Shown here piece by piece: positions 1,496 through 18,984 of a DNA stretch of 49,806 bases. Location of the stretch: NCBI GenBank assembly GCA_003153315.1, contig PLYA01000089.1, positions 1 to 49,806 of the forward strand. The letters run 5' to 3'. Below the pieces are notes generated by a model. That model was given only the letters and a program-made list of their open reading frames with translations. It was not told where the DNA came from and did not search any database. Numbering within the stretch: the first letter of the stretch is position 1; each line of letters opens with the position of its first letter. Made by a program: the position numbers and the translations under genes. The stretch comes from Bacteroidota bacterium. Lineage in GTDB: Bacteria > Bacteroidota > Bacteroidia > B-17B0 > Aurantibacillaceae.

Positions 1496-1572
1496 TGTGA
1501 TACCAGTTACATAAAGCCCACCAAAAACGGATGGTTTTATGTAAGTTTATCACACATATAAACAAGTTATAA
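1496..1572 (+). other. Candidate attI-like junction with imperfect inverted repeat
   Basis: Between the recombinase stop and cassette 1 lies an imperfect inverted repeat: TGTGATA...TTACATAAA (from 1496) pairs with TTTATGTAA...TATCACA (to about 1554), with bulged bases. About 12 bp later the array starts at AACAAG/TTATAACC (cut position 1566/1567). The first bases of cassette 1 are complementary to its own 3' end near 2158-2175, which fixes this boundary. By position this is where the primary attachment site (attI) should be. The hairpin could instead be the recombinase terminator, although no T tract follows it. Confidence 0.5.
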
Positions 1573-1603
1573 CCAATACGGCGGACAAATCTAATAACCG
1601 ACA

Positions 1604-2149
1604 ATGAACATTGCAGACAAAAATATTCCTCGCCGACCTTTGACCGTTGAGTCAACAAATCAACTTCGCGACACATTACTAACTGCCTTGACAGAAATAC
1701 TTAAAGATTCTTGTCCTTGCCACTATCCACGTTTTCGCTACTTAACGGCATTTCAGCATGACAACTATAAAGCAGGGCCCGTGTTTTGCGCGGACTCCAA
1801 TTATTTAATATCAATTGCCCGTTCAAAAAACTTGGACTTTCTAAAACAAACAGACAGAATTACCGAAAATCTAATAGGTGACTACAGCGCCGACTTAGTT
1901 TACACATGCAACAAATGTTCAACAGTATATAAATGTATTGGTAAACAATACAGCATTAGTTTTGAATTTGAGTATTTAATTACAATCGACAAAAAATATG
2001 GAACTAACATTGGAGCCGACGTGACTTTTCCTATTCCTTTGCTTCAAGGACTTTATGGCTTCGACGACGCCAACATATTATTGTGTGCTAAAGAATATAA
2101 ACTTGGGACAGCGGAGGAAGTTTTTAATTATTTGACCGAGAAAAAATAA
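1604..2149 (+). CDS. Cassette 1: hypothetical cysteine-containing protein
   Basis: A 181-residue protein that I do not recognise. There is no signal peptide or membrane segment, so it is probably cytosolic. It has two small cysteine clusters, CPCHYPRF (about residue 37) and CNKCSTVYKC (about 102-111), which could bind a metal. The gene sits 37 bp after the cassette boundary and ends 19 bp before its attC core. It is the first cassette and so probably the most recent insertion, if the array behaves like an integron. Confidence 0.75.
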   Translation: MNIADKNIPRRPLTVESTNQLRDTLLTALTEILKDSCPCHYPRFRYLTAFQHDNYKAGPVFCADSNYLISIARSKNLDFLKQTDRITENLIGDYSADLVYTCNKCSTVYKCIGKQYSISFEFEYLITIDKKYGTNIGADVTFPIPLLQGLYGFDDANILLCAKEYKLGTAEEVFNYLTEKK

Positions 2150-2168
2150 ACTATGTGCGCCGTACTGG

Positions 2169-2299
2169 TTATAACAGCACCCAGAATTCCAAGCGGCGGA
2201 CAGCGTAAAGATTTTATTTGTACCTTTATTAAACATTGCTCCCAGCCGACTGTGACTTCTTCCAAAGCCGCTCGGAAATCTGGCTGCAAAACGTTACTG
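2169..2299 (+). other. attC-like site 1
   Basis: TTATAAC opens the site and AACGTTACTG closes it. The inner arms pair imperfectly: CCAGAATTCCAAGCGGC on the left against GCCGCTCGGAAATCTGG on the right. The loop carries TACCTTTA at 2221. It belongs to the same sequence family as sites 10 and 14. Confidence 0.88.
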
Positions 2300-2343
2300 G
2301 CAATGGCTCGACAGGACAAACCATCACATAAACAAGACTACTA

Positions 2344-2976
2344 ATGAATAGAGATTTTAATAAAGTAATGTCTAACAAATCAGACAATGATTTGCTTGAA
2401 ATAGCCTCGAATTACAAAAAATTTACAAAAGACGCATTAGCTGCTTTATTAAGTGAACTAAAAATGCGAAAAATAGAAATAACTAATATTATTGAAATTG
2501 AAAATTGGATAAAAGAACTTGAGGTTAAAAACGAGAATGTAGGGAAAGTAAGTGGAACAATAGAATTACATCCAAACATCGAACGTGTAGCAAAATTTAT
2601 ATTACTTGGAATTCCAATAAGTTTAATCCAGTTAATAATCACTGCATTTTATTTAAATCAAGCTGTAGGTAGCATTTCTTTCAGCCAAATAGTTAGCTTG
2701 TTATCTTTCTCTCTAATTCTTATATGGATAATAATATTATTATTTGCAGCATGGATAAAATCAGGAACTTCAATTTCAAGAATAGTAATAGCTATACTTA
2801 CTGGTTATGCTATTATCACCAATATTTCAAGTCTTATTGACTCAGTCAATGAGGGAATACTTTTAATATTTGTTTCTATTATTAATTTAATAATAGACTG
2901 CTATATCTTATATCTATTATTTAATAAAGACACATCCAATTGGTACAAATCGAACAAACTAAATTTGACGAACTAA
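2344..2976 (+). CDS. Cassette 2: membrane protein with four predicted helices
   Basis: A 210-residue protein. The first about 75 residues are soluble and contain the pattern MSNKSDNDLLEIASN...LAALLSELKMRKIE, which I have seen at the start of many small Bacteroidota membrane proteins. Four hydrophobic segments follow (roughly residues 82-102, 110-135, 143-163 and 172-195). Function is unknown. The gene is followed by about 145 bp of AT-rich DNA with no visible gene before attC site 2. Confidence 0.78.
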   Translation: MNRDFNKVMSNKSDNDLLEIASNYKKFTKDALAALLSELKMRKIEITNIIEIENWIKELEVKNENVGKVSGTIELHPNIERVAKFILLGIPISLIQLIITAFYLNQAVGSISFSQIVSLLSFSLILIWIIILLFAAWIKSGTSISRIVIAILTGYAIITNISSLIDSVNEGILLIFVSIINLIIDCYILYLLFNKDTSNWYKSNKLNLTN

Positions 2977-3122
2977 GCTGAACTAAACTTTTATAACAAT
3001 TGTGTAACAAGACAAACAAGCAAGACACAAAATACCGACCCAAGTGTTACGAACTGTATTTAATTAGACGTGAAAACCATTGCTTACCAAGACATGACAA
3101 GCAAAAAGAAAAATACCACTGC

Positions 3123-3251
3123 CAGTAACAACGGCTTGCTCGGCAGTCGGGCGACGGTGCAAAACAAAAAGTGTTATCTTTATAAAAAGTTTATCGGTTA
3201 AGTTGGTTGGTGCTTCGTATCGCCCGACCGCCAAGCCGTAGAACGTTAGGT
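3123..3251 (+). other. attC-like site 2
   Basis: CAGTAAC opens and AACGTTAGGT closes the site. Arms: ACGGCTTGCTCGGCAGTCGGGCGA against TCGCCCGACCGCCAAGCCGT. This site differs most from the others in sequence but keeps the architecture and the loop element TATCTTTA at 3175. The gene-free stretch 2977-3292 holds this site plus short flanks with nothing else recognisable. Confidence 0.85.
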
Positions 3252-3292
3252 GCAAGTGGCGGACATTCAACTGGACGAAAAATTGTAGTAAT

Positions 3293-3973
3293 ATGACAAA
3301 AAAGATACTGATAGTCTGTATAATTTCCGTTCTTATTTTTGGGTTTAAAACAAAGACTTTGACACCAAATGAATGGCGAAACAATGCTCGACAAATTGCA
3401 GACACTTTTTTATGCTCATTGTTCAAAATAAACTCCGTGGACAGCGCTTTTTATCTTAATTCACTAAAATCTGGTTATGACGATACAACAATAATTAATA
3501 AAAAAGAGACGAAACGCCTTAAACAAAAAATTCCAACATTTGTTCAATACAAGAACGGTATTAATTACATCCCTGTTTATTACTATTTTTGGTACAGTTT
3601 AAAAAATGACTTTTCCGACAAACCCTATTTCATGTGTATAGGGATTACTAAAGATTTAAAACCTATCAAGTTTACAGTTACTAACCTGATAAAAATTCAT
3701 GATGTTCGAACTTTGCCAACAAAAAAAGATTTCATGTTGCTGGTTAAACAATATAATCTTAATCCCAAAACGTGTGACATTTATTATATGATCGAACCAA
3801 ATATGCATAATGTAAAAAATGAATATGTTTTATTATTGAAACAAAGAATTGGAACCTCCGCTCCTGCTTATGACGGATGTGACAGTTCCTACATTACAAA
3901 GAGTATTTATATCAATCCATGGACTAAACAACTTCTTAGAATGGCTATTGACACAAATCAACTTTGCATATAG
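3293..3973 (+). CDS. Cassette 3: exported hypothetical protein
   Basis: A 226-residue protein that begins with a short hydrophobic signal-like segment (MTKKILIVCIISVLIFGFKT). The rest is rich in Tyr, Asn and Lys and matches no family I know. It has no T9SS sorting domain at the C-terminus, so if exported it probably stays in the periplasm or envelope. The cassette start 47 bp upstream, TTAGGTGCAAGTGGC, is complementary to its 3' end near 4024-4041. Confidence 0.75.
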   Translation: MTKKILIVCIISVLIFGFKTKTLTPNEWRNNARQIADTFLCSLFKINSVDSAFYLNSLKSGYDDTTIINKKETKRLKQKIPTFVQYKNGINYIPVYYYFWYSLKNDFSDKPYFMCIGITKDLKPIKFTVTNLIKIHDVRTLPTKKDFMLLVKQYNLNPKTCDIYYMIEPNMHNVKNEYVLLLKQRIGTSAPAYDGCDSSYITKSIYINPWTKQLLRMAIDTNQLCI

Positions 3974-4034
3974 AATTACCTTACACTTATGACTGGACAT
4001 GTAAGTATGATTTATTTGTATGTAGCCACCAGAC

Positions 4035-4165
4035 ACCTAACAGCAAGCAATACCCAATGGCGGGCGAATTGCGTAAAGAAAATTTATTACTTTTATCAAA
4101 CGTTATTGCAAGGCGAAAGTTGGTTGTTCCAAACCGCCACTGGGTTTGCTTGCAGAACGTTATAC
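4035..4165 (+). other. attC-like site 3
   Basis: ACCTAAC to AACGTTATAC. First member of the commonest sequence family, with left arm AGCAAGCAATACCCAATGGCG and right arm CGCCACTGGGTTTGCTTGC; the family also includes sites 4, 6, 7, 13 and the truncated site 15. Loop element TACTTTTA at 4088. Confidence 0.9.
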
Positions 4166-4216: not shown

Positions 4217-5095
4217 ATGGCACGAAAAAAAGCAAACAGTGACTTACCATCTTTTGACGAACTAATTATTCCGACTGTTAAAGCTCTAAAAGAATTAGGC
4301 GGCTCGGGGACAATAGAAGAAATTAATTCTAAGGTTTATGTGATTGCTAAAATATCTGACGACATTTTACAAATTCCGCACGGCGACGACGGAACGACAA
4401 TGGAAGTTGACTATAGACTTGCTTGGAGTAGAACGTATCTTAAAAAATTCGGACTTCTTGAAAACTCTTCTCGCGGAATTTGGGCATTAACTAAATCCAA
4501 CATAGACCCTGACAAACTTGACTATATAGACATTGTACGGACAATTAGAGAACAAGCCAAACCAACTGTTCCAAAAAACAAAACCACAAAAGCGACCGAA
4601 CACGAAATCGCAGAAGAAGAAGTTAATGATACAGAGCAATGGAAAGAAAATCTATTAAATGTTCTTTATAAAATAAAGCCAGATGCCTTCGAGCGACTTT
4701 CGCAAAGACTTTTAAGAGAAAGCGGATTTTTTCAAGTGGAAGTAACAGGTAAATCAGGAGACGGTGGAATTGATGGAAAAGGAATTGTTAGAGTAAATGG
4801 TCTACTTAGTTTTTATGTTATCTTTCAATGCAAACGTTATAAAGGCTCTGTAGGCTCAAAAGACATAAGAGAATTTAGAGGTGCAATGATTGGCAGGGAG
4901 GTAAAAGGACTTTTTATTACTACTGGGACATTTACGAAAGATGCGATTAAAGAAGCTGTTAGAGATGGTGCCCCACCAATTGATTTAATGGATGGCAATC
5001 TACTTTGTGACAAATTAAAAGAATTAAAGTTAGGTGTTGACGTAAAACTAACAGAGACTGTTGAAATAAAAAACGACTGGCTAAATAATTTATAA
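4217..5095 (+). CDS. mrr: Cassette 4: Mrr-family restriction endonuclease
   Basis: A 292-residue protein with the layout of Mrr: an N-terminal winged-helix region (about 10-95: PTVKALKELGGSGTIEEIN...YLKKFGLLENSSRGIWALT), a charged linker, and a C-terminal PD-(D/E)xK nuclease domain (about 150-265). The catalytic pattern is visible as GDGGIDGKGIV followed by VIFQCKRYKG, with the QxK motif intact. Mrr enzymes are type IV restriction nucleases that cut modified DNA. No methyltransferase is in the window, as expected for type IV. A defence gene is common integron cargo. The gene lies 57 bp after the cassette boundary, just after a hairpin. Confidence 0.9.
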   Translation: MARKKANSDLPSFDELIIPTVKALKELGGSGTIEEINSKVYVIAKISDDILQIPHGDDGTTMEVDYRLAWSRTYLKKFGLLENSSRGIWALTKSNIDPDKLDYIDIVRTIREQAKPTVPKNKTTKATEHEIAEEEVNDTEQWKENLLNVLYKIKPDAFERLSQRLLRESGFFQVEVTGKSGDGGIDGKGIVRVNGLLSFYVIFQCKRYKGSVGSKDIREFRGAMIGREVKGLFITTGTFTKDAIKEAVRDGAPPIDLMDGNLLCDKLKELKLGVDVKLTETVEIKNDWLNNL

Positions 5096-5152: not shown

Positions 5153-5282
5153 GTATAACAGCAAGCAATTCCCAATGGCGCGCGAACTGTAAACCGAAAC
5201 ATTTTTTTATTATATTTACATTACGCAAGCCGACACATTGTACTTTCAAAACGCCACTGGGTTTGCTTGCGGAACGTTACAA
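5153..5282 (+). other. attC-like site 4
   Basis: GTATAAC to AACGTTACAA, family of site 3. Its loop carries an AAACCGAAACATTTTT stretch followed by TATATTTA at 5211, shared with sites 6 and 13. The cassette 4 end AAACCGTTCTGCGTATAAC is complementary to its start TTATACGCAAAACGGTT at 4160. Confidence 0.9.
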
Positions 5283-5372: not shown

Positions 5373-6062
5373 ATGAAAAAAATACTTCTTATTGCGACAC
5401 TGACAGCGACCACGTTGACCGCTCTTGCGCAGGACAGCACGACAACAAAAAAAGTTTATCATAACGAGTTCGGTGTTGACGCGACTGGTTTTATTAAACA
5501 GTTTGCAAACCTTAATTCAAGCTCGACAACTTATTCCCCGACTTACTATTTGACTTATCGTCGTTATTTCAAGTGCGGTAATATTCGACTTGCAGTTGGT
5601 GGTGACTTTTCAAATGCGACAATTCCTTCTTCCTATGTTGGCGACCCAAATACTTATCACAACAATTCAAATTCCCTGAATGCACGTATTGGTTGGGAAT
5701 TTGTTAGTGAGTTAAGCAAACGTTGGCAAGTATTTTACGGACTTGACCTTCGACCTGCTCTTGTTTACAGTAAAAATGACGCAGTTAATTTCAATGGCGG
5801 TTATGCCCAAGGCGACGAAACTAAATCGCAAATATATGGCGTTGCGCCGGTTCTTGGATTTCGTTTTAATCTGACAAACAGACTCAGCATAATAACTGAG
5901 ACAAGTTTTTCAATCAATATGCAAAAGGACTGGGAACACAAGTATTTTACTCCGACTTCAAGTGCGTATCCTCCACCAATGACTTACTCGCCGACAACAG
6001 CACAAAAAATGTTTAGTAGCTACGGACAACCTTTGTCAGTATTTATTGTGTTCAAAATATAA
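5373..6062 (+). CDS. Cassette 5: outer-membrane beta-barrel-like protein
   Basis: A 229-residue protein with a clear signal peptide (MKKILLIATLTATTLTALAQ). The mature part shows alternating amphipathic strands (GVDATGFIKQF, YYLTYRRYF, IRLAVGGDF, LNARIGWEF, WQVFYGLDLRP, VLGFRFNL, LSIITETSF) and ends with LSVFIVFKI, a typical barrel terminus with aromatic residues. I read it as a small outer-membrane barrel of unknown ligand. The start at 5373 is chosen because it begins the signal peptide; the longer reading frame to 5238 would start inside attC site 4. Confidence 0.82.
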   Translation: MKKILLIATLTATTLTALAQDSTTTKKVYHNEFGVDATGFIKQFANLNSSSTTYSPTYYLTYRRYFKCGNIRLAVGGDFSNATIPSSYVGDPNTYHNNSNSLNARIGWEFVSELSKRWQVFYGLDLRPALVYSKNDAVNFNGGYAQGDETKSQIYGVAPVLGFRFNLTNRLSIITETSFSINMQKDWEHKYFTPTSSAYPPPMTYSPTTAQKMFSSYGQPLSVFIVFKI

Positions 6063-6129: not shown

Positions 6130-6259
6130 TTGTAACACAGGGTTTCGCGTTAGCGGGCTGACTCGGTAACGAAATATTTTGTACTTTTATTTATCCGTTC
6201 TCACGGTTGACACATCGCGGTTTCAAAACCCGCCAACGCAAACCCTGGGAACGTTATGC
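6130..6259 (+). other. attC-like site 5
   Basis: TTGTAAC to AACGTTATGC. Arms ACAGGGTTTCGCGTTAGCGGG and CCCGCCAACGCAAACCCTG; inner part close to sites 9 and 12. Loop element TACTTTTA at 6182. Preceded by GCGGACATTTTGTACAGC, a 3' element shared with other cassettes. Confidence 0.88.
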
Positions 6260-6267
6260 CCAATGCT

Positions 6268-7248
6268 ATGACAATGACACGAGTGACATTTATAATATTA
6301 ATCTTGACGACTTGGGTAACACTTGCGACAGGACAAAATCTTGTTCCCAATTCAAGTTTTGAAATATATACCGCATGCCCCGGACCGTATTGGCCAAACG
6401 ACGTTAATAAAGCTGCCCCGTGGTACAATCCGACAACCTGTTCTCCTGATTATTTTGATACTTGCGCTGCTGCAGTTAGCGCAGGTGTTGGCTCACCCAA
6501 CAATTGGATTGGGTATCAAAATGCTCACACGGGTGTTGCATACGTTGGAACATATGTTTGGGCAAGTAGTGGTCAAAATTCACGTGAATATATACAAGTA
6601 AAACTATTAGACTCCTTACGTTCAGGGCAACAATATTGCGTTAGCTTTTATGTTAGTCTTGGAGTTAGTCCATCAGGATATAATTACGCAATAACAGAAA
6701 TGGGCTTACTTCTTTCAAATAACTCAATCACAACTTCTAATTATTATTATTTACCATATATCCCACAGATTACATCTCCGCCAGGTGTTTTCTTGACAGA
6801 CACTCTTAATTGGACAATGATTTCAGGAACATATACTGCATTAGGTGGAGAACAATATATTACAATCGGAAATTTTAAAACCGATGTAAATACGGATTCA
6901 CTTAACTTTATGCACACTTCGCCTTCAGGAGGACAAGCTTATTACTATATTGATGATGTTAGTATTTATGAGTGTGTAACTGGAATCTCTGAAATAGTTG
7001 TAAGCAATAAAACGACTGTTTATCCAAATCCTTTTAATAGTAGCGCGACAATACAATTTAGTAATACAAAAAAAGAAATTTGCACGCTGACACTTTACGA
7101 CCTGCATGGACAAATTGTTCGGACAATAAATAATATTGCAAGCGACCAAGTTGTAATTCAAAAAAACGATTTGACAAATGGGTTGTATTATTTTGTTTTG
7201 CGGACAAGTGACAACGTTGTTGGAACTGGTAAATTATCAGTAGAATAA
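6268..7248 (+). CDS. Cassette 6: T9SS-secreted jelly-roll-like protein
   Basis: A secreted protein of about 326 residues. After the signal peptide (ending near LATGQ) comes NLVPNSSFE, which opens a carbohydrate-binding-like module common in Bacteroidota surface proteins; it closes at YYYIDDVSIYEC (about residue 236). The last 80 residues are a type A T9SS sorting domain (VYPNPFNSSATIQF...NGLYYFVLRTSDNVVGTGKLSVE), so it should be exported by the Por system and attached to or released from the surface. An in-frame ATG at 6256 overlaps the recombination core GTTATGC; the 6268 start is preferred but uncertain. It is a paralogue of cassette 7. Confidence 0.85.
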   Translation: MTMTRVTFIILILTTWVTLATGQNLVPNSSFEIYTACPGPYWPNDVNKAAPWYNPTTCSPDYFDTCAAAVSAGVGSPNNWIGYQNAHTGVAYVGTYVWASSGQNSREYIQVKLLDSLRSGQQYCVSFYVSLGVSPSGYNYAITEMGLLLSNNSITTSNYYYLPYIPQITSPPGVFLTDTLNWTMISGTYTALGGEQYITIGNFKTDVNTDSLNFMHTSPSGGQAYYYIDDVSIYECVTGISEIVVSNKTTVYPNPFNSSATIQFSNTKKEICTLTLYDLHGQIVRTINNIASDQVVIQKNDLTNGLYYFVLRTSDNVVGTGKLSVE

Positions 7249-7259: not shown

Positions 7260-7389
7260 GCATAACAGCAAGCAATACCCAATGGCGGCGAATCGTTAAA
7301 CCGAAACATTTTTTTATTATATTTACATTACGCAAGCGGACACATTGTACTTTTAAAGCGCCACTGGGTTTGCTTGCAAAACGTTATGC
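7260..7389 (+). other. attC-like site 6
   Basis: GCATAAC to AACGTTATGC, family of site 3 and close to sites 4 and 13 throughout the loop. Loop element TATATTTA at 7318. Cassettes 6 and 7 share the boundary sequence GTTATGCCCAATGC. Confidence 0.9.
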
Positions 7390-7401
7390 CCAATGCCTGA
7401 C

Positions 7402-8373
7402 ATGAAAATTATTCTAACAATATTGACTTTTCTAACCTTGACATTGGCGACAGGACAAAACCTTGTGACTAATGGTGGCTTTGAAACATATTCATTATGT
7501 CCGACAACAAAAAGCACATCAGGTAATCTACAAATTGCTTATGCAAATGGTTGGCACGCTGCTGCATCGACACCAGACTATTATAATGCTTGCGCAGGGA
7601 TAAGTACTGGCGTAAACGAACCATATTCTAACTTTGGCTATCAACAAGATTGTTGCGGCGGCTCAGGTTACGCGGGTGGTTTTATGATTTCCAGATTCGC
7701 GACCAATAATGATGACAGAGAATATATTTATACAAAGTTGATTGACACTTTAAAGGCTGGACATAAATATTTAGCAAGTATGTATGTTAGTCGAGCCGAC
7801 GGATGGGATTATGCAGTCGCGACAATAGGTATGTTATTTACTGATACGGTAATAAATTTAATTTACCCACAAAGTTTCATTAGCGCAATACCACAGATAA
7901 AAAACACCACAGTATTATCCGACACGCTTAATTGGATGTTAATACAAGACACTCTTACTGCAATTGGTAACGAAACATATTTAACAATTGGCAATTTTAA
8001 TACAAGCGCTACGTGTGACTCTGTTAATGTTGGAGGTAACGGCACTCATTCTAGTTTTGGTTATTATTTTATAGATGGCGTTTCCGTAATTGACATTGGA
8101 ACAACAAGCATTAATCAAATTAACTCCAAATCTTTATTTCAAATTTATCCAAACCCAACAAGCGACCAGTCCACACTACAATTTGACAATACAAAAGCAG
8201 AACTTTGTACGTTGACACTGTATAACAACTGCGGACAAATTGTGCGGACAATAAATAATATCACAAGCGACCAAGTTGTAATTCAAAAAAACAACTTGAC
8301 AAGTGGTTTGTATTATTTTGTACTGCGGACAAGTGACCGTGTTATTGTGACTGGTAAACTTGCGGTGGACTAA
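7402..8373 (+). CDS. Cassette 7: T9SS-secreted jelly-roll-like protein
   Basis: A 323-residue secreted protein and paralogue of cassette 6. Signal peptide MKIILTILTFLTLTLATGQ, then NLVTNGGFETYSLCP opening the same binding-like module, with the matching motifs REYIYTKLIDTLKAGHKY, DTLNWMLIQDTLTAIGNETYLTIGNF and YYFIDGVSV. The T9SS type A domain (IYPNPTSDQSTLQF... SGLYYFVLRTSDR) is nearly the same at the DNA level as that of cassette 6; for example, GCGACCAAGTTGTAATTCAA is shared. The start at 7402 begins the signal peptide directly; an in-frame ATG at 7393 is possible. Substrate unknown. Confidence 0.85.
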   Translation: MKIILTILTFLTLTLATGQNLVTNGGFETYSLCPTTKSTSGNLQIAYANGWHAAASTPDYYNACAGISTGVNEPYSNFGYQQDCCGGSGYAGGFMISRFATNNDDREYIYTKLIDTLKAGHKYLASMYVSRADGWDYAVATIGMLFTDTVINLIYPQSFISAIPQIKNTTVLSDTLNWMLIQDTLTAIGNETYLTIGNFNTSATCDSVNVGGNGTHSSFGYYFIDGVSVIDIGTTSINQINSKSLFQIYPNPTSDQSTLQFDNTKAELCTLTLYNNCGQIVRTINNITSDQVVIQKNNLTSGLYYFVLRTSDRVIVTGKLAVD

Positions 8374-8381: not shown

Positions 8382-8512
8382 GCATAACAGCAAGCAATAC
8401 CCAATGGCGGGCGAAGTGTGTAAAGAAAATTTATTGCTTTTATCAAACGTTATTGCAATGCGACAGTTGGTTGTTCCAAACCGCCACTGGGTTTGCTTGC
8501 AGAACGTTATAG
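8382..8512 (+). other. attC-like site 7
   Basis: GCATAAC to AACGTTATAG, family of site 3 and closest to it (same loop GTAAAGAAAATTTATT). Here the loop element is TGCTTTTA (8433-8440), the only site that departs from TAnnTTTA. Confidence 0.9.
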
Positions 8513-8535: not shown

Positions 8536-9078
8536 ATGTTGCGACAGACCTTAATATTCATAGCACTTTTGACAACGTTGACAAACTTTAAAACATTCAG
8601 TCAATCTGACAAATATCGTTTGACAATAATTAAAAATGGCAATCGTTTTTTAGATCGACAATTCAAAACGGACACTCTTTTTAAGGACACAGTTGTTGAT
8701 TTATCAAAAAAACCTGTCGACCTTTATTTTACTCACCGACTAATGCACTTTCCATACTATATGCCGACCGGCGGACTTAAAAAAACCAACTTTCAGTCTG
8801 GAGAGTGTAATTTTAAATTTTATCCTCGGACAGTCAAATGCTATCAATATGACTCTTTAGACAGAGTGACAAGAATGCAAGTAGAAGGCAGCGGGACAAA
8901 GGGCTATTGGTATTTCAAATATGACACTTGCAATAAGTGTGACAGAATAGTTCAACTAATAAGGGACACCCGTACTTATACAATGACTTACAACGAGTAC
9001 GGAAATCTTAAACAAATTGACCAAGTAGACGGTGACATGCTTGAACATATTTATTTTGTATACCGTAAGGTGGACTAA
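8536..9078 (+). CDS. Cassette 8: exported hypothetical protein
   Basis: A 180-residue protein with a signal peptide (MLRQTLIFIALLTTLTNFKTFSQ). The C-terminal half has short stretches such as YQYDSLDRVTRMQVEG and YTMTYNEYGNLKQID that resemble YD/RHS-like repeats, but too few to assign the family. Two cysteines in CNKC (about 139-142) may be metal-binding or disulfide-forming. No T9SS domain. The start at 8536 is used because it begins the signal peptide; the longer frame to 8404 would lie inside attC site 7. Confidence 0.75.
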   Translation: MLRQTLIFIALLTTLTNFKTFSQSDKYRLTIIKNGNRFLDRQFKTDTLFKDTVVDLSKKPVDLYFTHRLMHFPYYMPTGGLKKTNFQSGECNFKFYPRTVKCYQYDSLDRVTRMQVEGSGTKGYWYFKYDTCNKCDRIVQLIRDTRTYTMTYNEYGNLKQIDQVDGDMLEHIYFVYRKVD

Positions 9079-11361: not shown

Positions 11362-12642
11362 ATGAAAAAATTTTTACTTCTTATTTCACTTGTTTATATT
11401 GGACAAGTAAATGCACAGACTTGGGTGACGATACCTGACGCCAACTTTGTTTCGTGCCTTCAGGCTATTGTGCCGGCAGCCATGAATGGTAATCAATTAA
11501 ATACAAGTAGCACCTTAGTTACAACAACTACACATACAATAAATGTTAGTAGTAGAAGTATTGCAAACTTAAGTGGTATTCAATTCTTCACATCACTTAC
11601 TTATTTAAATTGCCAAAACAATGTTTTAACAAGTTTGCCAACTTTGCCGAACTCGCTTACCTATTTAAATTGTGCCGATAATACCTATTTGTCATCTCTT
11701 CCTGCATTGCCTAATTCACTTTATTATCTATTATGTGATGCTTCAGGTATTACTACTCTACCTACATTACCTAATTCTCTTACTTACTTGATTTGTCGAT
11801 CTAATAATTTAACAACTCTCCCTACCTTACCTAATTCTCTTACTTATTTAGATTGCCAATTTAATTCTTTAACAGGTTTACCTTCTTTACCTAATTTACT
11901 TGATACCTTAATTTGCGAAAATAATTCTTTACACAATATTCCTGCATTGCCAAATTCTCTTATTTATTTGGACTGTTTTAATAATTCTTTAACAAGCCTT
12001 CCTGTTTTATCTAATTCACTTGTTTATTTAAATTGCAATCAAAATGTAATAACAAGTCTTCCTATTTTACCTAATTCTCTTTATTATTTAACATGTGTCG
12101 TTAATCATATAACAAGCCTTCCAGCTTTACCTAATTCGCTTCATTATTTTAATTGCAATAATAACTATTTAACAAGTCTTCCTATGTTGCCTGATTCTCT
12201 TAATTATTTATCCTGCCAAAACAACTACATAACATGTTTTCCAACTTTCCCTAATTCTATTACGTCTTTAATTATAATTGGTAATTCATATAATTGTTTA
12301 CCAAACTATGTTGCAGGCTTTAATTCTTCTAATTCCGCACCACTTTGCGCAGCAGGCAATCCAAATGGTTGTGCAGTTGCAACTGGAATAGAACAAATAA
12401 CTTTTACTAAAACTCTAGTAGAGGTTTACCCCAATCCAACAAGCGACCAGTTCTATATTGAAACAAACGTGACTGACAAACTAAACGTGGACTTGTATGA
12501 TGTAAACGGCAGACACGTGTTCAGCAAAAGCATAAGTGACAAATCAAATATTGACGTTACAACTTTAGACAATGGTATATATACATTGACAATAAATACC
12601 GTTGGCAACGTAACAAATAAAAAATTAGTTATCTTACATTGA
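11362..12642 (+). CDS. Cassette 11: leucine-rich repeat T9SS protein
   Basis: A 426-residue secreted protein: signal peptide MKKFLLLISLVYIGQVNAQ, then about eleven leucine-rich repeats of 20-21 residues with the consensus LPNSLTYLxCxxNxLTSLPxL (about 80-310), then a T9SS type A sorting domain (VYPNPTSDQFYIETN... LDNGIYTLTINTVG). Repeats of the LPNSLxxLxCxxN type occur in Bacteroidota surface proteins and would give a curved binding surface. The repeats are about 60 bp each and similar enough to expand or contract. The sorting-domain DNA is very close to that of cassettes 13 and 14. The leader (11224-11361) shows nothing recognisable. Confidence 0.9.
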   Translation: MKKFLLLISLVYIGQVNAQTWVTIPDANFVSCLQAIVPAAMNGNQLNTSSTLVTTTTHTINVSSRSIANLSGIQFFTSLTYLNCQNNVLTSLPTLPNSLTYLNCADNTYLSSLPALPNSLYYLLCDASGITTLPTLPNSLTYLICRSNNLTTLPTLPNSLTYLDCQFNSLTGLPSLPNLLDTLICENNSLHNIPALPNSLIYLDCFNNSLTSLPVLSNSLVYLNCNQNVITSLPILPNSLYYLTCVVNHITSLPALPNSLHYFNCNNNYLTSLPMLPDSLNYLSCQNNYITCFPTFPNSITSLIIIGNSYNCLPNYVAGFNSSNSAPLCAAGNPNGCAVATGIEQITFTKTLVEVYPNPTSDQFYIETNVTDKLNVDLYDVNGRHVFSKSISDKSNIDVTTLDNGIYTLTINTVGNVTNKKLVILH

Positions 12643-12719: not shown

Positions 12720-12852
12720 ACATAACAGCAGTCTGAATTTCAAGCAGGCGAAGTCGGTAAACGAAAATTTGTATCTTTAACTTAACTTTTGTGCTTGGTT
12801 GAGAGTTGGTCGTTTCAAACCCGCTCGAAAATCAGGCTGCCAAACGTTAGGC
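12720..12852 (+). other. attC-like site 11
   Basis: ACATAAC to AACGTTAGGC. Arms AGCAGTCTGAATTTCAAGC and CCCGCTCGAAAATCAGGCTG. Loop element TATCTTTA at 12772. The cassette 11 end GGGTGCTCTACACATAAC is complementary to its start TTATGTGTAAAGTACCC at 11218. Confidence 0.88.
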
Positions 12853-12867: not shown

Positions 12868-14583
12868 ATGAAAAAATTGTTTTCCATATTCATATTTTTT
12901 TCTCTCCTGACAAAATTCTCAGCGGACGGACAGAACACAAATAACTATTGGTATTTTGGGAATCATGCAGAAATCTATTTTGACAGTTCAGGAATTCATT
13001 CGACTACAGGAAATGTATTTGCAGCAGAAGGAACAGCATCAATCTCTAATGGCTGTGGACTTTTATTCTATACCGACGGTGACACTGTTTGGAATAAAAA
13101 TCATCAGATGATGATTAATGGCTTTAATATTGGAGGTAAATGCGCAGCTTTTAATAGGTCTTCAAGTACACAAGCAGCTTTAATTGTGCGTCAACCAACA
13201 TCAGATTCAATTTTTTATATTTTCACTACCGATTGTGTTGAAGACCTTCTTGTTGACGGACTACGATATTCAATTGTCAATATGAATTTGAACGCAGGCT
13301 TTGGAGAAGTTATTCTCAAAAATCAGCCCTTGTTTGCTAATGCCGAAGAAAAACTTACTGCCTCTAAACATTCAAACGGTTGTGATATTTGGATTATTTC
13401 TCATGAATTCACAACAAATAATTTTTATTCATACTTACTTACGAGCACAGGATTAAATTTAACTCCTGTAATTTCGCCCGCTGGACAAATACATCAATGT
13501 AATAACCCAAATTACCCAAATGGTCGCGGGTATTTAAAAGCATCGCCAAATGGTGAATTGCTTATCAATGTAAATCCGGACGCAGCATATTCGTATTGTG
13601 ACACAACACTCCCTGAAGTTTTTAATTTTAATAAGTTAAATGGAATAATCACTTCCAGTTTTGTATTTCCAAAAGACACTGATTATTGGTGGTCTTCTTA
13701 TAGTGCTTGGACAATTCCTTTTTATGGCGCATCATTTTCACCTGACAATTCAAAATTATATTTAAGCAGCGGTTTTTACGGACCAAATCTTTACCAATTT
13801 AATTTAAACGCGGGTTCGCCCGCAAACATAGTTGCCTCAAAAACATTTTTAGCTTACCCATATCCGTTTCCATTTTCTCCTTACAATATTCCAACTTCAC
13901 TTGTAAATGCTCCCGATGGTAAAATGTATGTCGCACAAAGATGGAGGAATTATTTAGGTGTTATTAATAATCCAGATTCATTGGGACTTGCCTGTAATTA
14001 TGTCGACTCTGCATTCAATCTTACAAATGGTACAATGAATGATTGGGGCGGACTTCCTAATTTTTTTGAAGATTACATTAATGCAAAAACATTAAAATCG
14101 AATTTCTCATTCTCTACAGTTGGCAATACAGTTAACTTTACCAATAATTCTTTAGGTGCAATTAGTTATTTTTGGAACTTTGGCGACGACAGTACAAGTA
14201 CTTTACAAAATCCAATTCATACATATTTAGGTTCAGGTTTCTTTACTGTCAGTTTAATTGCAAGAGACAGCTTATGCAATATTGATAAAATTTGCTATAC
14301 TATTTATATTTCTCCCACGACTGGAGTAATTGAAATCGCTGACAATTTTCATTTTACCGTTTTTCCAAATCCATTCGACAATACTATAAATATTGAATTT
14401 CAGTTAAAAGACAATTTTCAACTTGACTTGTACAATGCAATGGGACAAAAAATAAAAAGCTTTAATATTATTGACAAACAAAAAACTACAATACAACTTG
14501 GAGACAATTTAAATTCAGGAATTTATTTTCTTCAAGTTAAAAACAAACAATTCATAGCGACCAAAAAACTGACAAAACAATAA
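12868..14583 (+). CDS. Cassette 12: PKD-domain T9SS protein
   Basis: A 571-residue secreted protein. After the signal peptide (MKKLFSIFIFFSLLTKFSADGQ) comes a beta-propeller-like region starting NYWYFGNHAEIYFDSSGI and LLFYTDGDTVWNKNHQMM, a layout common in Bacteroidota gliding-associated surface proteins. A PKD domain follows at about 410-480 (NTVNFTNNSLGAISYFWNFGDDST...NPIHTY), then a T9SS type A domain (VFPNPFDNTINIEF... LNSGIYFLQVKNKQ). It is a relative of cassette 13, which has the first region but no PKD. The start at 12868 begins the signal peptide; the longer frame would start in attC site 11. Confidence 0.87.
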   Translation: MKKLFSIFIFFSLLTKFSADGQNTNNYWYFGNHAEIYFDSSGIHSTTGNVFAAEGTASISNGCGLLFYTDGDTVWNKNHQMMINGFNIGGKCAAFNRSSSTQAALIVRQPTSDSIFYIFTTDCVEDLLVDGLRYSIVNMNLNAGFGEVILKNQPLFANAEEKLTASKHSNGCDIWIISHEFTTNNFYSYLLTSTGLNLTPVISPAGQIHQCNNPNYPNGRGYLKASPNGELLINVNPDAAYSYCDTTLPEVFNFNKLNGIITSSFVFPKDTDYWWSSYSAWTIPFYGASFSPDNSKLYLSSGFYGPNLYQFNLNAGSPANIVASKTFLAYPYPFPFSPYNIPTSLVNAPDGKMYVAQRWRNYLGVINNPDSLGLACNYVDSAFNLTNGTMNDWGGLPNFFEDYINAKTLKSNFSFSTVGNTVNFTNNSLGAISYFWNFGDDSTSTLQNPIHTYLGSGFFTVSLIARDSLCNIDKICYTIYISPTTGVIEIADNFHFTVFPNPFDNTINIEFQLKDNFQLDLYNAMGQKIKSFNIIDKQKTTIQLGDNLNSGIYFLQVKNKQFIATKKLTKQ

Positions 14584-14648: not shown

Positions 14649-14778
14649 GCCTAACACACGGCAATACGCAAAACGGCTGACTCGGTAACGAAATATTTTG
14701 TACTTTTATTTATCCGTTCTCACGGGTGACACATTACGGTTTCAAAACCGTTCTGCGTTTGCCGCGGGAACGTTAGGT
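14649..14778 (+). other. attC-like site 12
   Basis: GCCTAAC to AACGTTAGGT. Nearly identical to site 9 although cassettes 9 and 12 are otherwise unlike. Loop element TACTTTTA at 14701. Preceded at 14601-14639 by TCGGCGGACATTTTGTACAG and TTGTGTAGTGTTAGTA, a tail shared with cassettes 4 and 5. Confidence 0.9.
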
Positions 14779-14820: not shown

Positions 14821-16257
14821 ATGAAAAAAATCCTACTTCTTTTTTTAATCACTTGTGACACTTTCACAATAAAAGCGCAAGTCGGTAAAGAAGCTTGGCA
14901 TTGGCAATTTGGTACAAACGCAGCTTTAGACTTTAGTAGTGGAAGCCCCGTTATTGGGACAAGTAATATCAACACACATGAAGGCTGTGCATCTATTAGC
15001 GACCGTAATACAGGCCAGTTGCTTTTTTATACAGATGGAGATTCGGTTTGGGATAAAAATAATATCAGAATGCCAAATGGGATAGGTTTAATTAATGGAA
15101 TTCAGGGAACAACTACACAAGGAGCAACAATAGTACCAAGGCCAGGCACAAATAATATTTATTATATCATTACTGCTTACGACGAGGCTCAACCAAATTA
15201 TGGAGTTTACTATTCTATCGTCGACATGAATTTAAACGGCGGACTTGGTGATGTTACTACAAAAAATGTATTATTAACTGCTCCACTTGTGACTGAAAAG
15301 GTAGTAGCTACGCGACATTGCAATGGTACAGATTATTGGATTTTAACCCATCCATTTAATTCAAACAACTTTAATGCCTACTTGGTAAATTCCTTGGGCA
15401 TCGATTCAACACCAGTTGTATCAAGTATTGGTGCCATAGAACAAAATATTTGTTGTGGTGGTTTTGAAGCAACTGGGTATTTAAAAGTATCGCCGAATGG
15501 AAAAAAACTTGCTTTATGCTTATATATATTTTCACCCAAACCAATAATTGAAATATATGATTTCGATAATTCAACCGGAATTGTAAGTAATTTAATTACC
15601 ATACAAATAAATGGAGGAAATTATAATGGTGCTTATGGATGTAGTTTTTCTCCTGACAATACGAAGTTGTATGCTACTGTTTCGGGTGGTTCAATAAATC
15701 GACTTTTACAGTTTGATTTAAGTAGTGGCGTACAAAGTACAATTCTTGCTTCTTGTGATTCACTATTTACAAGCAATAATCATTGGGCAGGTGGTCTGCA
15801 AATTGCTCCAAATGGAAAAATATATGTGGCTAATCAAAACTCTGATAGTATTGGTGTAATTAATTCCCCAAACAGTTTAGGCACAGCTTGCAATTATCAG
15901 TACAATGCATTTCGTTTATCTAACAATACAATTTCTGGCTGGGGCTTTCCCAATTTCATTGATGCGGGTTTAAGCCCAACATATACTTGCACAAGTACAA
16001 ATATAAACGAGGCATTACTAACGAACAGAAGCGTGACAATTTATCCAAATCCAACAATCGACCAGTTCTTCATCGAAGCAAACACAACGGACAAACTAAG
16101 CGTGGACTTGTATGACGTAAACGGCAGACACGTGTTCAGTTCAAACGTAAGGGACAAATCAAATATTAACGTAGCAACTTTGGACAATGGTATTTATACA
16201 ATGACAATAAAATCTGTTCACCTCGTGGCAAATAAAAAATTAGTTATTGTTCGGTAG
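14821..16257 (+). CDS. Cassette 13: T9SS-secreted propeller-like protein
   Basis: A 478-residue secreted protein. Signal peptide MKKILLLFLITCDTFTIKAQ, then a region with the same motifs as cassette 12 (WHWQFGTNAALDFSSG, LLFYTDGDSVWDKNNIRMPNG, SPNGKKLALCLY, APNGKIYVANQNSDSIGVI), probably a beta-propeller. The T9SS type A domain (IYPNPTIDQFFIEAN... LDNGIYTMTIKSVH) is nearly the same at DNA level as in cassettes 11 and 14. Unlike cassette 12 it has no PKD domain. Its leader TTAGGTATAACACGCCCGAC is shared with cassette 14. Confidence 0.87.
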   Translation: MKKILLLFLITCDTFTIKAQVGKEAWHWQFGTNAALDFSSGSPVIGTSNINTHEGCASISDRNTGQLLFYTDGDSVWDKNNIRMPNGIGLINGIQGTTTQGATIVPRPGTNNIYYIITAYDEAQPNYGVYYSIVDMNLNGGLGDVTTKNVLLTAPLVTEKVVATRHCNGTDYWILTHPFNSNNFNAYLVNSLGIDSTPVVSSIGAIEQNICCGGFEATGYLKVSPNGKKLALCLYIFSPKPIIEIYDFDNSTGIVSNLITIQINGGNYNGAYGCSFSPDNTKLYATVSGGSINRLLQFDLSSGVQSTILASCDSLFTSNNHWAGGLQIAPNGKIYVANQNSDSIGVINSPNSLGTACNYQYNAFRLSNNTISGWGFPNFIDAGLSPTYTCTSTNINEALLTNRSVTIYPNPTIDQFFIEANTTDKLSVDLYDVNGRHVFSSNVRDKSNINVATLDNGIYTMTIKSVHLVANKKLVIVR

Positions 16258-16301: not shown

Positions 16302-16431
16302 ACCTAACAGCAAGCAATACCCAATGGCGTGTGACCTCTAAACCGAAACATTTTTTTCTTATATTTACATTATGCAAGCCGACACATTGCGCTTTCAAAA
16401 CGCCACTGGGTTTGCTTGCAAAACGTTAGGT
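16302..16431 (+). other. attC-like site 13
   Basis: ACCTAAC to AACGTTAGGT, family of site 3, loop element TATATTTA at 16360. The pairing between cassette start (14773) and cassette end (to 16308) extends over about 18 bases with one mismatch, the clearest case in the array. Confidence 0.92.
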
Positions 16432-16466: not shown

Positions 16467-18191
16467 ATGAAAAGACTATTGCTTTTTCTCCTCTTTATTT
16501 GTATCGGACAAATTCATGGACAAATTATTTCGACTGTTGTAGGCAATGGGACAGCCGCATACAATGGTGATGGCGGCCCCGCCATAAACGCAGAGATTTC
16601 TGCACCTAATGACATTGCCATTGACAAGAAAGGCAATATGTACATTGTAGATTATGGCAACAACATCATTAGGAAAGTTGATACAAGTGGCATTATCAGC
16701 ACCTTTGCTGGAAACGGAACGTTTGGTTACTCAGGTGATGGCGGGCCTGCAATAAACGCAACGTTTCAAACTCCAATTGGAGTTGCTACAGACTCTGCGG
16801 GTAATGTATATATTGCCGATTACGAAAACAATGCTATAAGAATGGTAAATACTATCGGTGTCATTAGCACCGTCGTAGGTAATGGAACGCTGGGATATAT
16901 AGGTCGTCCAACTGCAGTTAGATTTGATGTGTTGGGTAATATGTATATTGCCGATTTATCTAACTCTTGTATTCGCAAGGTAAATACATCTGGCATTATC
17001 AGTACCATTGCTGGCAACGGAACCTCTGGTTACAGTGGAGATGGAGGTCCCGCCATAAATGCATCATTAAGCAATCTTTGGGACGTAGCTATAGATCCTA
17101 CCGGTAATGTCTATGTTTCGGATTGGGGTAATAACGTTGTTCGAAAAATCGATAATTCTGGTATTATTAATGTCTTTGCTGGAAACCACGCGCCCGGTTT
17201 TGGAGGAGATGGAGGACCAGCTACATCTGCTTATTTACTTTATCCACTTGGTTTAGCCTGTGATAGTTTAGGCAATGTATTTATTTCCGATGGAAATAAC
17301 AATCGGGTTCGCAAAGTGGCAACAAGCAGTATTATTAGTACAATTGCAGGAGGAGGCAGTGGTGGTTTAGGTGATGGCGGGCTTGCAACAAATGCGAAAT
17401 TATCAACCCCACGAGGAATTGCATTTGACAAAAGTAGGAATGTTTATATTGTTGATGTCGACTATAATAGAATACGTAAGGTAAGTTATTGCGCAACTCC
17501 GATTACAATTAGTATAACTGGCTTAGATACAATATGCCGAGATAGTAATAATGTACTTACAGCCAATGGCGCAAGTACTTATTCTTGGAGCGCCAATGCA
17601 GGAAGCGCTGCTACAAACACCGCTGTTGTTAATCCTGTAACTAATACTTCTTATTCAGTAAATGGTATTACTGGAGAATGTATAGCAACTGCTAGTTTTA
17701 CTGTTAAGGTTAGTCCAATAATAAGACTAAGTAATATTGTTTGTTCTGGGGATACCGCTACTATAAGTGCCATAGGAGCTAATAGCTATACGTGGAGTGC
17801 AAATGCTGGTGCAGCCACAACAAACTCAGTAAGCGTTTCTCCTAGCGTAAATACAAGTTATACTGTTGAAGGTACAGATTCGCGGGGCTGCATAGATAGT
17901 TATTCGTTTTTATTAGATATTGGTGGATGTGGGATATATGGGATAAACCAATATTTAGAAAGTTTTATAAGAATTTATCCAAATCCAACAAGCGACCAGT
18001 TCTTCATTGAAACAAACACGACTGACAAGCTAAATGTTGACTTGTATGATGTAAACGGCAGACACGTGTTTAGCACAAGCGTAATGGACAAATCAAATAT
18101 TGATGTAACAACTTTAGACAATGGTGCTTATACATTGACAATAAAATCTGTTGACCGTGTAACAAATAAAAAATTGGTTATTGCTCGGTAG
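16467..18191 (+). CDS. Cassette 14: NHL-repeat T9SS protein
   Basis: A 574-residue secreted protein. Signal peptide MKRLLLFLLFICIGQIHGQ, then about six NHL repeats (about 35-340) of the form PxxIAxDxxGNxYIxDxxNNxIRKV with ISTxAGNGTxGYSGDGGPA spacers; these should fold as a beta-propeller. Two short Ig-like segments follow (TICRDSNNVLTANGASTYSWSA and VCSGDTATISAIGANSYTWSA), then the T9SS type A domain (IYPNPTSDQFFIETN...). The sorting-domain DNA is almost the same as in cassettes 11 and 13. NHL propellers usually mediate protein or glycan contacts; the partner is unknown. Confidence 0.9.
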   Translation: MKRLLLFLLFICIGQIHGQIISTVVGNGTAAYNGDGGPAINAEISAPNDIAIDKKGNMYIVDYGNNIIRKVDTSGIISTFAGNGTFGYSGDGGPAINATFQTPIGVATDSAGNVYIADYENNAIRMVNTIGVISTVVGNGTLGYIGRPTAVRFDVLGNMYIADLSNSCIRKVNTSGIISTIAGNGTSGYSGDGGPAINASLSNLWDVAIDPTGNVYVSDWGNNVVRKIDNSGIINVFAGNHAPGFGGDGGPATSAYLLYPLGLACDSLGNVFISDGNNNRVRKVATSSIISTIAGGGSGGLGDGGLATNAKLSTPRGIAFDKSRNVYIVDVDYNRIRKVSYCATPITISITGLDTICRDSNNVLTANGASTYSWSANAGSAATNTAVVNPVTNTSYSVNGITGECIATASFTVKVSPIIRLSNIVCSGDTATISAIGANSYTWSANAGAATTNSVSVSPSVNTSYTVEGTDSRGCIDSYSFLLDIGGCGIYGINQYLESFIRIYPNPTSDQFFIETNTTDKLNVDLYDVNGRHVFSTSVMDKSNIDVTTLDNGAYTLTIKSVDRVTNKKLVIAR

Positions 18192-18245
18192 ACATTTGTA
18201 CGCAGACACATGGTCGTTTTGTAAGCAGGCACAAGGGCGTGCAAT

Positions 18246-18376
18246 ACATAACCGCACCCATAATTCCAAGCGGCGGACAACGTAAAGATTTTATTCGTAC
18301 TTTTATTCAGCATTGCTGCCAGCCGACAGCGACTTCTTCCAAAGCCGCTCGGAAATTTGGCTGCAAAACGTTAGTG
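18246..18376 (+). other. attC-like site 14
   Basis: ACATAAC to AACGTTAGTG, family of sites 1 and 10. Arms CGCACCCATAATTCCAAGCGG and CCGCTCGGAAATTTGGCTGC. Loop element TACTTTTA at 18298. Last complete site of the array. Confidence 0.9.
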
Positions 18377-18384
18377 GCAATAGC

Positions 18385-18414
18385 GGTGGACTTGTCCCAG
18401 CGGACAAATCCACC
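18385..18414 (+). promoter_or_regulatory. Leader hairpin of cassette 15
   Basis: GGTGGACTTGTCC pairs with GGACAAATCCACC (one mismatch) around a short loop, 15 bp before the start codon. Same core as the hairpins in the leaders of cassettes 4, 5 and 9. Confidence 0.55.
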
Positions 18415-18429
18415 TTTGACAACAAAAAT

Positions 18430-18915
18430 ATGACAAAGCAGTTATCATACAGACTTTTGACTTTTATTTTAGTTGTGACTTCTTACTCTTTGTTTTCGCA
18501 AGGACAGAATAAGCGTTATGTAGAGGAGATTGCTTTGTATCACTTGGACAGCTTAACAAAGGTTGACCCTTTATTTAAAAATTTTAAGTATTTTACAAAT
18601 GGCTACTTATCGAGTTTCAGAACTGACGCAGACACAAATCACTTTATGCGGGTGACACCAAATATTTTAATTAAAACACCATTTAAAAATCTTCAAATAG
18701 TTGAGGACTTCAAACTTACTTCATTCGCAGTACCAAGACGCATAAGAAAAAATGGTTCATCAACGACCTTAATAATTTATGGCTATACAAAACTTAACGA
18801 CAAATACTTAGTAGGTTTCAGAATAGAAGAAGGTGAAAGTGGAAAAGAAGCTCTAATTATCATGAATAGCAATGGCGACCTCATTGGACGACGGTATTCG
18901 ACGTATATATATTAG
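18430..18915 (+). CDS. Cassette 15: exported hypothetical protein
   Basis: A 161-residue protein with a signal peptide (MTKQLSYRLLTFILVVTSYSLFSQGQ) and a mature part of about 135 residues with no family I recognise. No T9SS domain or lipobox is present, so the periplasm is the likely location. It is the last cassette; in an integron this would be among the oldest. The start at 18430 begins the signal peptide; the longer frame lies in attC site 14. Confidence 0.74.
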   Translation: MTKQLSYRLLTFILVVTSYSLFSQGQNKRYVEEIALYHLDSLTKVDPLFKNFKYFTNGYLSSFRTDADTNHFMRVTPNILIKTPFKNLQIVEDFKLTSFAVPRRIRKNGSSTTLIIYGYTKLNDKYLVGFRIEEGESGKEALIIMNSNGDLIGRRYSTYIY

Positions 18916-18953
18916 TTCGGTAGACACTTTGAATACAGTTCGTCCGCTAAAGC

Positions 18954-18984
18954 CACTAACAGCAAGCAATACCCAATGGCGGCG
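18954..18984 (+). other. Truncated attC-like site 15 (left half only)
   Basis: CACTAAC followed by AGCAAGCAATACCCAATGGC matches the left half of site 6 up to about 18984, then the match stops; no right arm or AACGTT core follows before the nadD stop codon 30 bp later. The cassette 15 end CGCTAAAGCCACTAAC still pairs with its start TTAGTGGCAATAGCG at 18371, so the cassette itself is intact. The break is inside the arm/loop region, not at the recombination core, which suggests a deletion. Confidence 0.8.

Follow-up and report, generated by a model that had tools for sequence, protein, structure and literature searches.

Introduction

What kind of element is the row of gene cassettes that follows a tyrosine recombinase gene at positions 387-18988 of contig PLYA01000089.1 (GenBank assembly GCA_003153315.1) of a Bacteroidota bacterium? 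The DNA analysed, a stretch of 49,806 nucleotides here called the window, is part of a 71-kb contig in a draft genome of 4.14 Mb. The original prediction described an integron-like cassette array with an atypical recombinase, and this description is supported by what follows: the recombinase is of the XerA type and lacks the domain specific to the integron integrase IntI, the two ends of each cassette pair with one another, and the arrangement recurs in Bacteroidia. The region comprises the recombinase gene, an attI-like junction, 15 codirectional cassettes, and 14 complete and one truncated attC-like sites. We conclude that it is very probably an integron-like platform, in which, as we predict, a recombinase without the IntI-specific domain joins attI to folded bottom-strand sites and so inserts and excises cassettes.

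Bacteroidota are listed among the phyla with integrons (PMC8618304; PMC2426708, where genes were selected by the IntI domain). In the account given with IntegronFinder 2.0, only In0 elements had earlier been found in Bacteroidetes, to which one complete integron, that of Salinibacter ruber M1, was added (PMC9024848).

Results

Array structure and cassette ends

All 15 cassette genes lie on the plus strand, as predicted, which is also the strand of the recombinase gene. Sites were searched for with the pattern TAAC...AACGTTA, pairing not being required; of 16 matches, two were alternative TAAC starts of one site, leaving 14 complete sites, and the fifteenth is represented by its 5' half only, in agreement with the 14 of 15 counted originally. 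From TAAC to GTTA the complete sites measure 123-128 bp, which is the predicted length of 129-134 bp less 3 nt on each side, and their sequence families do alternate along the array. The predicted start at 1567 is exact (junction G1566/T1567, the slash marking the junction here and below), but the limits given for the array have to be widened to take in the recombinase gene at 387-1466.

Cassette boundaries lie at G/TTA, and the first bases of a cassette are the reverse complement of the bases just 5' of its own TAAC. With the TTA counted, the unbroken match amounts to 7-10 bases in 14 of the 15 cassettes and to 3 in cassette 14; past it there are usually one or two mispairs and then up to seven further pairs, own-end pairing reaching up to about 17 bp. 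Over 15 variable positions, the own ends of the 15 window cassettes matched at a mean of 10.5, compared with 4.5 for the two flanks of one site, which belong to neighbouring cassettes, and 3.96 for all other pairs; two of the 14 site flanks scored high (9 and 13), their neighbours having similar ends. The observed own-end sum was reached in none of 100,000 permutations. In 20 other loci, 70 cassettes gave an own-end mean of 8.96 (46 with at least 9), against 4.40 for site flanks (1 of 119 with at least 9) and 4.16 for pairs between loci. Because complementary ends meet only in a circular cassette, this pattern matches the concept of the integron cassette. Own-end pairing in canonical sites covers seven bases and is shorter than in the window array.

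Hairpins and strand asymmetry of the attC-like sites

The claim that the sites pair with themselves was confirmed: the bottom strands of all 14 complete sites folded alike, with paired TAAC and GTTA, a spacer, a stem of about 20 bp and a loop, and 11 of the 14 hairpins had z scores of -3.2 or lower relative to shuffles. AAC and GTT boxes together with an unpaired spacer are found in canonical attC sites as well, though the spacer here is one-sided, 5 nt facing 1 nt. Stem arms were aligned alone, since MAFFT misaligned the palindromic stems of whole sites. Compensatory change was seen in 8 of 8 stem pairs (12 distinct stems), and 97.2% of stem cells paired, as opposed to 71.6% in shuffles and 21-37% when the arms were slid.

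At stem position 14 or 15, a top-strand A stands opposite C in every one of the 14 window sites and in 77 of 79 gap-free aligned sites over all loci (5 of them the window's). This conserved A.C mismatch of the top strand is a G.T wobble on the bottom strand and makes the bottom stem the more stable one, as it was in 13 of 14 window sites and 110 of 118 others (the top stem in 6). The hairpin detector itself favours a bottom G.T over A.C, and the asymmetry was therefore rescanned strand-neutrally; the bottom stem was again more stable in 89 of 96 sites and the top stem in 5. The greater stability of its stem suggests that the bottom strand is the substrate.

Canonical attC sites carry two to three extrahelical bases on the R''-L'' arm (PMC2727003). 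Among 131 sites, extrahelical bases were found on neither arm in 79, on the R''-L'' arm only in 26, on the L'-R' arm only in 22 and on both arms in 4. Folding of the bottom strand, as the original prediction had proposed, thus produced hairpins but inconstant extrahelical bases, and its equation of the sites with integron attC holds for the hairpin with AAC and GTT, not for the asymmetric spacer or the missing constant extrahelical bases.

The loops were enriched in two motifs on the top strand: TAnnTTTG occurred in 26 of 131 sites (6.9 in shuffles, maximum 16; bottom strand 5 versus 5.1) and TAnnTTTA in 38 (7.1 in shuffles, maximum 15), with examples at 2221-2228 and 10509-10516 of the window. 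Both resemble the -7 element of Bacteroidota promoters. Canonical integrons have a promoter that reads into the array; TAnnTTTG was also present near the recombinase stop codon in 13 of 43 array loci, versus 2 on the other strand. The sites may supply the next cassette with a portable promoter, which is no more than a lead, since related sites are not independent. Rfam gave no match within the array; further along the window, at 37953-38074 (plus strand), it recorded a Flavo-1 RNA (47.5 bits).

A XerA-type recombinase without the IntI-specific domain

A tyrosine recombinase adjoins the array, as in canonical integrons. The protein scored 226.3 bits against the XerA family NF040815, above the cut-off of 220; the catalytic Arg, His-x-x-Arg, His and Tyr stretches are readable, and in a structure comparison with VIA-align its best matches were archaeal Xer chains. 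A separate XerD is encoded in the same genome, at 41383-42294 of the window. Against TIGR02249, the integron integrase family, the recombinase reached 201 bits, below the cut-off of 265, in a match split into two stretches. The spacing from KDR to RHS was 68-70 residues in 87 of 91 family sequences and 73-84 in the other four, compared with 110 in all 13 IntI, and the YPNA of the IntI motif was found in none of the 91. Judged by its sequence, the IntI-specific additional domain around patch III, which includes I2, is absent from the recombinase, and the locus is for this reason not a canonical integron. Membership of the canonical integrons or of the clusters of attC sites lacking an integrase (CALIN) was considered and ruled out, the IntI domain being absent and a search of the genome for the IntI family at E <= 1e-45 having given nothing.

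The recombinase also carries an N-terminal domain of a type found in 0 of 13 IntI. Four family proteins are without it, too few for inference: L072 is a clipped fragment, and no codirectional site accompanies the other three. The domain scored 21.2 bits against HARP (PF07443), under the Pfam gathering cut-off of 25; VIA-align superposed it on 4o66 (SMARCAL1 HARP) with Z 4.7 over 49 residues at 1.8 A (CASTOR1, Z 7.9), and a profile search of PDB sequences placed 4o66 second (E 0.27), after a glycosyltransferase (E 0.085). The HARP-like domain may take over structure recognition.

The attI-like junction

The recombinase gene is followed by the motif TATAAnnnAG/TTA, past which the sequence is that of the first cassette; an attI next to the recombinase gene is likewise a feature of canonical integrons. 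The motif lies mostly 90-114 bp behind the recombinase gene in relatives, and the junction logo was built from the 26 junctions less than 400 bp from the recombinase, out of 31 found. When junctions were located by own-end pairing alone, 24 of 33 strong ones fell at the motif. The motif had been read from loci L038-L089 and was tested on loci fetched later, where it stood at +80 to +120 in 15 of 38, and in 13 of 16 at a recombinase identity of at least 50%; 0.014 per locus were expected.

By inspection, inverted repeats whose sequence varies between genomes lie upstream of attI. In two Weeksellaceae (L240, 15158-15195; L048), what follows the attI junction is not a cassette gene but a short, nearly perfect hairpin, GTTGGGAAAAATCG...CGATTTTTCCCAA.

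Recurrence in Bacteroidia

At E <= 1e-60 the recombinase was found in 58 of 87 genomes of the window's family (window genome included) and in 121 of 247 genomes drawn from Bacteroidia, in part of which arrays were checked. Canonical IntI exceeded its family cut-off in a single genome of 247 Bacteroidia sampled in this manner; in a phylum sample it did so in 84 of 296, and among the matches listed all but one were outside Bacteroidia.

Linkage was assessed by scanning the surroundings of 93 recombinases (window, L038-L089, L161-L200; 1.16 Mb) for the hairpin. This returned 136 codirectional sites (13 of them the window's, the detector missing 1 of its 14) as opposed to 2 in the opposite orientation; two shuffles of the 1.16 Mb gave none. 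At least one site was present at 43 of the 93 loci and at least two at 23. Where at least 3 kb of downstream sequence was available, sites were found at 31 of 56 loci: 21 of 28 with a recombinase identity of at least 50%, 3 of 3 at 45-50% and 7 of 25 below that. The biggest arrays apart from the window's had 10 detected sites. Two Chryseobacterium plasmids carry a relative at 57% identity with the attI motif, and one of them has a complete site and a matching cassette start.

A tree of recombinases was built from 78 rows. Left out were all rows with short downstream sequence and 22 named rows, namely cut or near-duplicate Xer and IntI rows, L199 (with a doubtful site of 62 nt), L077, and L040, L042 and L046 (near-copies of L041). 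One clade of 35 (support 99/92) united 33 array-linked recombinases with two that had no detected site; with the near-copies restored, the clade holds 34 with and 4 without a site, L040 and L046 having the attI motif and no detected site. XerC and XerD separated at 100/100. IntI nested within the I2-less radiation on a long branch; descent of IntI from within the I2-less family is not claimed, as the approximately unbiased (AU) test did not reject the alternative (p 0.257).

Several further occurrences were recorded. In the window's genome, contig C93 (L055) carries another recombinase together with attI and two sites; elsewhere C85 has a two-site cluster, C90 two sites whose ends do not match, and C24, C70 and C97 single sites. 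Such sites away from the array are possible insertions at secondary sites. Two recombinases of a distant branch, L079 and L052, have hairpin sites opposite in orientation or upstream, and three phage records contain weak relatives. On an Acinetobacter baylyi plasmid (L242, NZ_CP104735.1), the gene immediately upstream of tet(X3) encodes a shorter relative, 52% identical over residues 134-359 and annotated as a tyrosine-type recombinase. As judged by eye, this gene begins behind a G/TTA junction, and after the gene comes sequence like the first half of a site; the hairpin detector found no complete site in this locus. xerD and tigecycline resistance appear together in papers; a cassette origin of tet(X) is a lead only.

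Sharing and duplication of whole cassettes

The original prediction had named gain, loss or reordering of cassettes with breaks at G/TT in related genomes as a check, and two whole-cassette cases, of the kind known from canonical integrons, answered it positively. Among 92 cassettes compared (a few places included twice), two pairs were near-identical over their whole length. A 1436-bp cassette of genome G421 is 97.9% identical to one in G446, from a different family, with 300-bp flanks only 53% and 46% identical; identity starts and stops at CGTTA, and features of the encoded protein were judged by eye to be MerT/MerP-like. Within the G421 array, a 1071-bp cassette is present in two copies, 100% identical within the same CGTTA limits and with flanks at 47% and 52%. 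Near-copies of site 11 of the window lie between different genes in G065, of the same genus, and on another contig of the window genome; in the parts shown, similarity runs from TAAC to GTTA. When the DNA of the window array was compared with the 87 family genomes, partial matches only and no whole shared cassette were found.

Features of the platform and its surroundings

Coordinates are collected in Table 1. Of the proteins encoded in the cassettes, seven have type IX sorting tails, one is an Mrr-type endonuclease, one matches GIY-YIG weakly and another RHS repeats weakly, and five are without a Pfam match. To the right of the array lies ordinary chromosome with nadD, a C-terminal processing protease, mfd and xerD. 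On the other side, direct repeats at 21-bp spacing (at least 11 copies, window 11-360) end 27 bp before the recombinase ATG and are perhaps regulatory.

Table 1. Positions of the recombinase gene, attI-like site, cassette genes, attC-like sites and first flanking gene in the window (Pfam, type IX and fold remarks as found; ORF, open reading frame)
Feature	Position	Strand	Remarks
Tyrosine recombinase, 359 aa	387..1466	+	ATG 387; HARP-like N-terminal domain (~1-73), SAM-like domain, XerA-type catalytic domain
attI-like site	1506..1569	+	..CATATAAACAAG/TTA; junction 102 bp past last recombinase codon; upstream limit arbitrary
Cassette 1 (1567-2293) gene	1604..2149	+	No Pfam match
attC-like site 1	2172..2296	+	Motif search and fold
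Cassette 2 (2294-3245) gene	2344..2976	+	No Pfam match
attC-like site 2	3126..3248	+	Stem divergent
Cassette 3 (3246-4159) gene	3293..3973	+	No Pfam match
attC-like site 3	4038..4162	+	Motif search and fold
Cassette 4 (4160-5276) gene	4217..5095	+	Mrr-type restriction endonuclease
attC-like site 4	5156..5279	+	Motif search and fold
Cassette 5 (5277-6253) gene	5373..6062	+	No Pfam match; ATG picked by eye within ORF 5238-6062
attC-like site 5	6133..6256	+	Motif search and fold
Cassette 6 (6254-7383) gene	6256..7248	+	Secreted, type IX sorting tail; ATG overlaps site end, later start possible
attC-like site 6	7263..7386	+	Motif search and fold
Cassette 7 (7384-8506) gene	7393..8373	+	Secreted, type IX sorting tail; resembles cassette 6 protein
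attC-like site 7	8385..8509	+	Motif search and fold
Cassette 8 (8507-9211) gene	8536..9078	+	Weak RHS-repeat match below Pfam cut-off; ATG by eye within ORF 8404-9078
attC-like site 8	9088..9214	+	Weak fold, z -1.90
Cassette 9 (9212-10580) gene	9460..10338	+	Type IX sorting tail
attC-like site 9	10460..10583	+	Motif search and fold
Cassette 10 (10581-11217) gene	10596..11078	+	Weakly GIY-YIG-like, below Pfam cut-off; ATG by eye
attC-like site 10	11093..11220	+	Motif search and fold
Cassette 11 (11218-12846) gene	11362..12642	+	Leucine-rich repeats and type IX sorting tail
attC-like site 11	12723..12849	+	Weakest fold, z -0.60
Cassette 12 (12847-14772) gene	12868..14583	+	PKD domain and type IX sorting tail; ATG by eye
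attC-like site 12	14652..14775	+	Motif search and fold
Cassette 13 (14773-16425) gene	14821..16257	+	Type IX sorting tail
attC-like site 13	16305..16428	+	Motif search and fold
Cassette 14 (16426-18370) gene	16467..18191	+	NHL repeats and type IX sorting tail
attC-like site 14	18249..18373	+	Weak fold, z -1.71
Cassette 15 (from 18371) gene	18430..18915	+	No Pfam match; ATG by eye
attC-like site 15, truncated	18957..18988	+	5' half only; right limit approximate
nadD, first gene past array	19014-19592	-	

Discussion

We propose that a cassette circle would present its site, lengthened by the cassette's own complementary ends, as a bottom-strand hairpin; the recombinase, probably the one linked to the array, would cleave at G/TTA and join the hairpin to attI, so that cassettes would enter in a single orientation behind the recombinase gene. 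Recombination between two sites would excise cassettes, and replication would presumably resolve the junction, by analogy with integrons. The conserved wobble and the HARP-like domain are candidates for roles in the recognition of strand and structure.

The platform shares with canonical integrons a recombinase gene, attI, cassettes, imperfect palindromes with AAC and GTT at the crossover and boundaries at G/TT, and in both the bottom strand is favoured, here by the stability of its stem. It differs from them in that the IntI-specific domain is missing, an extra N-terminal domain is present, the spacer is of 1 and 5 nt, and extrahelical bases are not constant while a mispair, A.C on top and G.T on the bottom, is conserved. 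The recombinase of a canonical integron usually diverges from its array; here the two are codirectional. Like XerA and other NF040815 recombinases, the window's enzyme has catalytic and SAM-like domains, and unlike them it is linked to cassette arrays and has the additional N-terminal domain. CTXphi and other XerCD-using elements (integrative mobile elements exploiting Xer, IMEX) also combine a stem without constant extrahelical bases with an I2-less recombinase (PMC4792948), whereas the present platform encodes a recombinase itself and its arrays hold many cassettes.

Three other explanations were weighed. If the cassettes moved as duplex circles by double-stranded Xer-type recombination, the symmetry of the hairpins would reflect the duplex arms of a Xer site, as in the elements that use XerCD. 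This is improbable: a loop (median 76 nt) separates the two arms by tens of bases, compensatory changes preserve the stem although its sequence is variable, and one strand's stem is consistently the more stable; recognition of a duplex needs none of these features. A canonical integron whose IntI lies elsewhere or has been lost, with the XerA-like gene a bystander, would fit the fact that CALINs are common, one complete integron of Bacteroidetes proper, in Salinibacter ruber, being included in IntegronFinder 2.0 (PMC9024848). We regard it as very unlikely, given the lack of an IntI match in this genome at E <= 1e-45 and its near absence from the Bacteroidia sample, the joint recurrence of XerA-like gene, attI and codirectional sites, and the unlikeness of the sites to canonical attC. 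Dispersed repeats are hardly credible, whether as palindromic elements that landed behind genes unrelated to one another or as a fixed gene cluster copied through homologous recombination: single sites do occur away from the array in the same genome, and seven genes have type IX sorting tails in common, yet pairing of own ends cassette by cassette, breaks of shared cassettes at CG/TTA, uniform orientation behind a recombinase and a conserved attI speak against it.

Several observations weigh against the integron-like platform itself. Recombination is predicted from sequence, and another recombinase could be the acting enzyme; evidence of movement comes from relatives and not from the window's own species. 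The draft genome consists of 105 contigs and has a contamination of 6.21%, and the contig begins 386 bp 5' of the recombinase ATG. For three of the 14 hairpins the fold is hardly or not at all better than that of shuffles (z -0.60 at 12720, -1.71 at 18246 and -1.90 at 9085), one extrahelical base is present on the R''-L'' arm in 8 of the 14 window sites, and whole sites with their loops are less one-sided than stems, the bottom strand being more stable in 11 of 14 window sites and 81 of 118 others (the top strand in 35). As to linkage, two shuffles of the first 688 kb gave 3 chance matches, 5 of the 136 sites are doubtful, being shorter than 75 nt, and no site was detected at 25 of the 56 loci that had 3 kb or more of downstream sequence, identity being below 45% at 18 of these. 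The HARP-like assignment is weak: PF07443 matched 3 of 14 related N-terminal domains and DUF5710 matched 7, the window's own domain is below the cut-off, and VIA-align placed CASTOR1 and XPB chains above SMARCAL1 HARP.

In canonical integrons the I2 domain accommodates the extrahelical bases, which are described as having co-evolved with it (PMC4792948); the platform lacks I2 and constant extrahelical bases alike, which fits their co-evolution. Tentatively, and with a little less than even confidence, we suggest that it represents a second class of integron, widespread in Bacteroidia: a complete capture system that recombines folded single-stranded sites without I2, a HARP-like domain, of a structure-specific DNA-binding kind and situated at the opposite end of the protein, replacing the IntI domain and a bottom-strand G.T wobble replacing the extrahelical bases as the strand signal. 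The lack of an intermediate between Xer recombinases and integrons has been called a chicken-and-egg problem, a paradox stated in PMC4792948, and the platform could be such a functional intermediate.

A literature search covering titles and the beginnings of abstracts, partly as best matches, such as the best 20 of 540 papers, and with preprints and most subscription journals outside its scope, returned no report of an integron-like system with an I2-less recombinase, though one may exist in print. IntegronFinder recognises IntI by its IntI-specific domain (PMC9668308). The system appears to work like an integron, yet its recombinase falls outside this definition of the integrase, and since searches rely on that domain, a common gene-capture system of Bacteroidia would be missed or filed as integrase-less clusters. 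The platform likely lets many bacteria of the group acquire and swap genes, and it opens to experiment the questions of whether folded single-stranded DNA can be recombined without I2 and extrahelical bases and of what preceded these.

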